From: a virus
Reading direction: 5' to 3' (one strand)
DNA length: 62,692 bases
Virus record (IMG/VR): IMGVR_UViG_3300047319_000963
Location: 1-62,692 of that record
Position 1 is the stretch's first letter, and each line of letters opens with the position of its first letter. Position numbers and translations under genes: made by a program. Under the pieces are notes generated by a model. The model worked only from the letters and a program-made list of their open reading frames with translations, had not been told where the DNA came from and did no database searches. Shown here piece by piece: positions 18,277-18,426 of this stretch.

Positions 18277-18346
18277 GCTATCAGATACTGTTCGGCACTA
18301 CATACATCCATCAAAAACAAGTGTCGGGCGCCTTCCTGCTGATAGC
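18277..18346 (+). ncRNA. Y-RNA-like unit A (minimal hairpin)
   Basis: The lower helix GCTATCAG (18277-18284) pairs with CTGATAGC (18339-18346). After an asymmetric internal loop the upper helix CGGCAC (18293-18298) pairs with GTGTCG (18321-18326). The 22-base loop begins TACAT. It has the same Ro-binding-type stem as units B to E but no tRNA-like module. Confidence 0.75.
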
Positions 18347-18357
18347 ACCCATTTTCA

Positions 18358-18426
18358 GTTACTAGATTTAGTTCGGGACTACATTTTTTGGAATTGTCAA
18401 GTCTCGAGCGTTTACCTGCTAGTAAC
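18358..18426 (+). ncRNA. Y-RNA-like unit B (minimal hairpin)
   Basis: The lower helix GTTACTAG (18358-18365) pairs with CTAGTAAC (18419-18426). The upper helix TCGGGAC (18373-18379) pairs with GTCTCGA (18401-18407) with one G-U. The 5' internal-loop strand is ATTTAGT and the loop begins TACAT. The helix sequences differ from unit A while pairing is kept, which is covariation. Confidence 0.78.

Follow-up and report, generated by a model that had tools for sequence, protein, structure and literature searches.

Directly after a Ro60 gene in a viral genome, we identified two predicted hairpin RNAs of about 70 nt (units A and B) that have the stem of a Y RNA and no tRNA-like module, followed by three longer RNAs (units C–E) that have both. 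A covariance model from whose training both A and B and enterobacterial YrlB were left out places these as predicted members of one short class of Y RNAs. The window analysed here is the whole source record, a virus record of 62,692 bases in IMG/VR, and the five units 3′ of its Ro60 gene look built for Ro60 binding. As far as a limited literature search shows, the two-class phage array, the wide spread of short units and their tendency to come first in the arrays are new.

Two classes of RNA beside a phage Ro60 gene

The protein encoded upstream of the array (599 amino acids in the longest open reading frame) has TROVE and vWA domains and the Ro60 fold across nearly its whole length, features that place it in the Ro60/Rsr family. 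Its AlphaFold model (mean pLDDT 82.6) is a nearly full-length structural match to the Ro60–RNA complexes 2i91 (Z 29.9) and 1yvp (Z 29.5); structural comparison with Deinococcus Rsr (2nvo) gives Z 22.1, and the Ro60 structure of Thermus phage phiLo (9l5y) is also among the matches. Because residues 1–36 are modelled with low confidence, the true start of the protein may lie downstream of the longest-frame start. Elsewhere in the window are genes for a DNA polymerase A, a VapE-like protein and SU10-like portal and adaptor proteins, as well as two adjoining tyrosine integrase genes (11115–12338 and 12408–13592).

Unit A begins 73 bases past the Ro60 stop codon (18204), on the Ro60 strand. Both short units fold into an 8-bp lower helix, an asymmetric internal loop (4–5 nt on the 5′ side and 8–9 nt on the 3′ side), an upper helix of 10–11 bp and a terminal loop of 19–20 nt, with folding z-scores of −3.45 for A and −3.93 for B. 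In all five units the internal loop opens with AU and ends with YUG or YCG, and UACA stands at the edge of the terminal loop. In A and B, the helices, the 5′ AU and the 3′ YUG or YCG together make up the Ro-type stem of the short YrlB-type class. The putative Ro site is in the lower stem, where bulges or an internal loop interrupt the pairing, as PMC4726728 describes for known particles; the same paper reports that Rsr binds the lower stem of Yrl RNAs.

Table 1. Positions of the Ro60 gene and of the RNA elements that follow it in the window
Feature	Position	Strand	Evidence
Ro60/Rsr-like protein gene	16405..18204	+	Pfam TROVE and vWA_Ro60, AlphaFold model, structural matches
Conserved long hairpin '0', after the Ro60 stop codon and before unit A, unlike a Y RNA	18209..18271	+	z −4.15
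Short Y RNA A, YrlB-type, 20-nt loop, without tRNA module	18277..18346	+	Fold, z-score, R1
Short Y RNA B, YrlB-type, 19-nt loop, without tRNA module	18358..18426	+	Fold, z-score, R1
Long Y RNA C, permuted tRNA-like module, YrlA-type	18436..18572	+	Rfam YrlA 45.9 bits, E 6e-9
Long Y RNA D, permuted tRNA-like module, YrlA-type	18584..18719	+	Rfam YrlA 47.3 bits, E 2.4e-9
Long Y RNA E, permuted tRNA-like module, YrlA-type	18731..18869	+	Rfam YrlA 47.0 bits, E 2.9e-9
Intrinsic-terminator-like hairpin closing the array	18878..18904	+	11-bp stem then TTTTCTTTT

The initial annotation, made from the sequence alone, had described A and B as two minimal Y-RNA-like hairpins, and the observation as a whole proves to be real. 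The span it gave (18277–18426) is correct and holds both units, which lie on the + strand at the coordinates given in Table 1; it gave them loops of 21–22 bases, which we measure at 20 nt in A and 19 nt in B. Its statement that they lack the tRNA module is borne out, as the T arm and the D-arm-like stretch present in the loops of C–E are absent from both. It had also given A and B the same helices as C–E. That claim stands for the architecture; the likeness in sequence is only modest (stem identity to C–E of 63–67% for A and 65–70% for B, against a shuffled mean of 53% and a maximum of 68.5%), so the case rests on architecture and motifs. The picture of two RNA classes side by side next to a full-length Ro60 is upheld by the folds, by the covariance model described below and by the Ro60 structure.

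We searched for such units with a structural descriptor that asks for the helices, AU or AA on the 5′ side and [CT][CT]G on the 3′ side, and does not require UACA; its 3′ motif was loosened because a stricter first form missed enterobacterial units and the related contig L003. Over both strands of the window it found A–E plus four weaker matches elsewhere, and shuffling of a 4-kb region gave a mean of 0.03 short-loop matches per shuffle.

The long units (136–139 nt) have an architecture like that of A and B, with loops of 85–92 nt. In a search of the 801-base region 18150–18950 at E up to 5, they align end to end to the Rfam YrlA model (RF02553), with the T arm before the D arm and at scores (45.9–47.3 bits) under the gathering score of 69 bits; at gathering scores, Rfam has no match in the whole window. 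The Rfam YrlB model (RF02565) matched neither A nor B in the same region even at E 5, and neither reaches its gathering score of 97 bits, so we do not file them as RF02565. C–E were also considered as ordinary tRNA genes and rejected, as ARAGORN finds no tRNA in the window.

Units A–E and the phage Ro60 are probably made in one transcript. No terminator was found between the Ro60 stop codon and the terminator-like hairpin at 18878, and a similar 11-bp hairpin ends the array of L003 (6353–6381). A scan of both strands for sigma-70 promoters gave two sites compared with 2.0 expected by chance, and at this chance level we claim no promoter. The closing stem and 5′ part of hairpin '0' are conserved in L003.

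A covariance model of the Ro stem

The loci collected for comparison were 51 viral contigs with Ro60 and the best 80 of 461 bacterial loci by likeness to the query. From 72 short units we built a covariance model, R1, keeping the window clade and the enterobacterial contigs out of training. Across the training units 94.9% of cells are paired, and each of the 14 pairs is changed on both sides somewhere (14/14); two-sided changes over the 72 units number 321, compared with 91 in shuffles.

With its filters switched off and the entire window searched on both strands, R1 scores A at 25.3 bits (E 2.7e-5) and B at 28.1 bits (E 3.7e-6). These are its only matches there at E < 0.01, the next best having E 0.089; with default filters B is found and A is missed. 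The model also matches the L003 short unit (E 1.9e-9) and the enterobacterial YrlB unit of contigs L006 and L007, likewise left out of training (35.5 bits, E 2.4e-8). A, B and enterobacterial YrlB share, that is, one covariance model trained on neither.

R1 matches are confined to the surroundings of Ro60. All 253 of them, from 133 sources, lie on the Ro60 strand (253/253). Among 20 whole genomes (136.9 Mb), hand-picked from 80, mostly cultured isolates and with loci on which R1 was partly trained, all 41 matches at E up to 0.001 lie no more than 1.2 kb from the single vWA_Ro60 match of their genome and on its strand (41/41); 5 of the 20 genomes have no R1 match. R1 is a model of the Ro stem that prefers short loops. 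It also detects some long units, so the stem is common to both classes and R1 alone is no proof of a separate class.

The loop lengths of units with UACA are bimodal, with peaks at 10–29 and 80–89 nt and a trough at 40–49 nt. The descriptor found 47 viral and 65 bacterial short units near Ro60, and UACA sits atop the upper helix in 45 and 63 of them, respectively (counts that include L006, L007, L015 and L042 and leave out L005 and L008–L012). Among short-loop control matches it does so in 1 of 12 from the opposite strand and in 2 of 28 from shuffled sequence. The motif is kept at the loop edge in short and long units alike.

Relatives of the locus retain short units. The contig L002, with a Ro60 94% identical to that of the window, keeps both A and B; B is identical there, the Ro60 gene being 92.6% identical in bases, and the loop past UACAU differs between the two A units. 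The contig L003 (Ro60 70% identical) has one short unit that we found, 79.7% identical to B. Across the four distinct rows of the window clade, 72 of 72 pair cells are paired and four pairs are changed on both sides.

Spread and order of the short class

To tally the units we joined descriptor and R1 matches within 1.5 kb of Ro60. The viral tally covers 46 loci, without the duplicates L015, L030, L031 and L042 and without L006, L007, L005 and L008–L012; further unit-free near-duplicates may remain among the 46, and L001 and L004, which repeat the locus of the window, are uncounted. Of the 80 bacterial loci, 59 have short units near Ro60, 67 have long units with a T arm and 49 have both classes; of the 46 viral loci, 25 have short units, 12 long ones and 11 both. 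Short units are absent within this distance from 21 bacterial and 21 viral loci, and 20 of the viral loci lack units altogether; the bacterial figure indicates that the short class is not needed everywhere. By phylum, as assigned from record titles, short units are present in Acidobacteriota (15/20), Verrucomicrobiota (14/16), Myxococcota (7/9) and others, and within the proteobacteria in alphaproteobacteria (5/13) and betaproteobacteria (10/12).

The Ro60 phages Mx1, GMA2, Atuin, Trina, VanLee and Phosso (L005 and L008–L012) gave no descriptor match and no convincing R1 match, only a weak one on the opposite strand (E 0.081). In the actinobacteriophages GMA2 and Atuin (L008 and L009), the Ro60 genes border large clusters of tRNA genes. 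Some short units at four other loci (L091, L078, L084 and L118) have a 31–45-nt loop that seems, by eye, to hold a small hairpin of its own, and are possibly a third form.

Of 60 downstream arrays that have a short unit and any longer unit, 46 have a short unit closest to Ro60 compared with 27.2 expected under random order, and none of 20,000 permutations reaches this count. Some loci have short units upstream of ro60 or after long units. The short-first arrays repeat the order rsr-yrlB-yrlA published for Salmonella in the legend to Figure 1 of PMC9879122, within an enterobacterial operon that the accessible passages of PMC7790460 and PMC9879122 name rsr-yrlBA-rtcBA. The pairing of short and long Y RNAs beside rsr is therefore already described in enterobacteria, and on the enterobacterial contigs the short unit is Rfam YrlB (RF02565), adjoining YrlA (RF02553). 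Like A and B, enterobacterial YrlB is short (its loop is 22 nt in L006), has no tRNA module, directly follows rsr/Ro60 and adjoins a YrlA-type RNA. In contrast to it, A and B fall below any RF02565 threshold, and in contrast to the operon the window has two short units rather than one, is a phage genome and has no RtcB or RtcA domain among the 21 proteins scanned, a subset of its open reading frames. Compared with YrlA, C–E match RF02553 end to end, with a permuted tRNA-like module and sub-gathering scores, and A and B correspond to the stem only.

The two contigs that supplied YrlB (L006 and L007) were deposited as Escherichia and Salmonella phage contigs and look like host DNA. They contain rsr, YrlB, YrlA, a further long unit and the start of rtcB, the last named from the published operon order. 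A search for the enterobacterial array in E. coli genomes gave no match. Among 17 hand-picked loci, all with short units, the Rfam YrlB model matched none and the YrlA model five. Of all the loci tried, the YrlB model recognised none but the enterobacterial copies, and the short class therefore probably goes unannotated at most other Ro60 loci that have it.

The tRNA-mimicking RNAs are reportedly called the most conserved subclass in the 2018 review by Sim and Wolin, which implies that other subclasses were already known. Among the matches listed in our limited literature search, no source describes a widespread short class. The window resembles the Ro60–Y RNA and Rsr–Y RNA particles (D. radiodurans RYPER and the vertebrate RoRNP) in the full-length fold of its Ro60, and differs from them in having five predicted RNAs of two classes for one phage Ro60. 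Phage Ro60 proteins with known or suspected phage Y RNAs are reported in the portions of PMC12282133 and PMC7824862 that we could access, including a phage-encoded Ro60 in Listeria phage CKA15 (PMC12282133) and Ro60 and putative Y RNAs in mycobacteriophages (Chen 2014, as cited in PMC12282133). These systems have in common with ours a Ro60 homologue in a phage, but the pairing of short and long RNAs is not described in those portions.

Proposed roles of short and long RNAs

We consider it probable that A and B are YrlB-type ligands that only gate Ro60, that C–E recruit a partner and that the ratio of short to long RNA sets the role of Ro60. Ro60 would hold all five RNAs through the stem that they share. 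When a long Y RNA is bound, its tRNA-like module would bring in a partner, much as YrlA recruits PNPase in Salmonella, and a short Y RNA would fill the same Ro60 site without recruiting one. With a short RNA bound, the ring would be stabilised, its entrance gated and the whole uncoupled from the nuclease. The short-to-long ratio could then determine whether Ro60 serves as a chaperone or store, or as part of a degradation machine, during infection.

We infer these roles, gate-only ligands for A and B and exonuclease recruiters for C–E, by analogy, and they are consistent with the published complex: the available passages of PMC9879122 and PMC4987338 describe Rsr and YrlA bound to PNPase and do not mention YrlB. 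The division of labour that the initial annotation had suggested would likewise fit Rsr–YrlA–PNPase, and sequence results are no proof of it. If one Ro60 ring takes the two classes as alternative ligands, the ratio between them would offer a simple means of controlling whether RNA is stored and chaperoned or fed to an exonuclease. More speculatively, and with doubt outweighing confidence, short Y RNAs may be a general second class of Ro60 ligand in bacteria and phages rather than an enterobacterial peculiarity; usually first after ro60, they would form with the long RNAs a switch that uncouples or couples an exonuclease and that phages carry whole.

It is improbable that the short units are instead RNA regulators whose AU-rich, G-poor loop would bind an mRNA, an Hfq-like protein or the PNPase S1/KH domains and whose Ro60 stem would act as a stabilising handle. 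This reading is favoured by the composition of the loop after UACA (A 0.32, U 0.31 and G 0.15 over 80 short units, compared with 0.23, 0.22 and 0.28 in the loci) and by the retention of UACA at the loop edge in both classes. However, UACA is retained in long units too and so is not specific to the short class, and past UACAU the loop varies in both length and sequence, unlike a seed region.

Still less likely, given the conservation of the short units, is that A and B are functionless remnants of long Y RNAs, left when the tRNA-like module decayed away. Such decay could explain why A and B have the stem architecture of C–E within one array, and a unit of L003 that has only a T arm could be an intermediate. 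Yet L003, despite a Ro60 gene of only 70.0% identity, keeps B with all of its pairs and with two-sided changes; the short class recurs in many phyla with a loop-length peak of its own, and our data already suggest conservation specific to short units across a wider set of phages.

A and B come after the ro60 stop codon and ahead of the long units, and the first terminator stands at 18878, a position that would also suit hairpins for processing or terminating the ro60 mRNA within its 3′ portion that are not ligands at all. We regard this as very unlikely: the terminator scan reports neither unit, the long Y RNAs have a matching internal loop and UACA, and several loci have short units upstream of ro60 or after the long units. 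Equally remote is the idea that short units occupy the Ro60 of the host and blunt its response, for although a general Ro-binding anatomy could fit a host Ro60, the phage has its own just upstream, and the same arrangement occurs in bacteria with their own Ro60. The presence of that phage Ro60 just upstream is also why, of the two roles first suggested for A and B, decoy or gate, the decoy is the weaker half. For the reading that we prefer, of gate-only short ligands beside partner-recruiting long ones, the compact phage Ro60 with its five-RNA array offers a self-contained unit in which the short and long RNAs could be studied experimentally.

The modules carried on the Y stem vary between relatives of the window. 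Unit C of L002 (6008–6146) keeps the Y stem, with 85% stem identity to unit C of the window, and has its tRNA-like domain in ordinary linear order, in contrast to the permuted order of the window unit. ARAGORN reports this domain as tRNA-??? with a two-base anticodon 'ca' (6050–6121), and the unit reads as a module swap on a common Y-stem handle. In L003, a regular tRNA-Met(CAT) gene (6133–6206) interrupts the array of Y RNAs, with short unit B on one side and the last unit on the other. That last, weakly scoring unit (6215–6333) has a Y stem and T-arm sequence with no clear D arm, and is possibly intermediate between the short and long classes.
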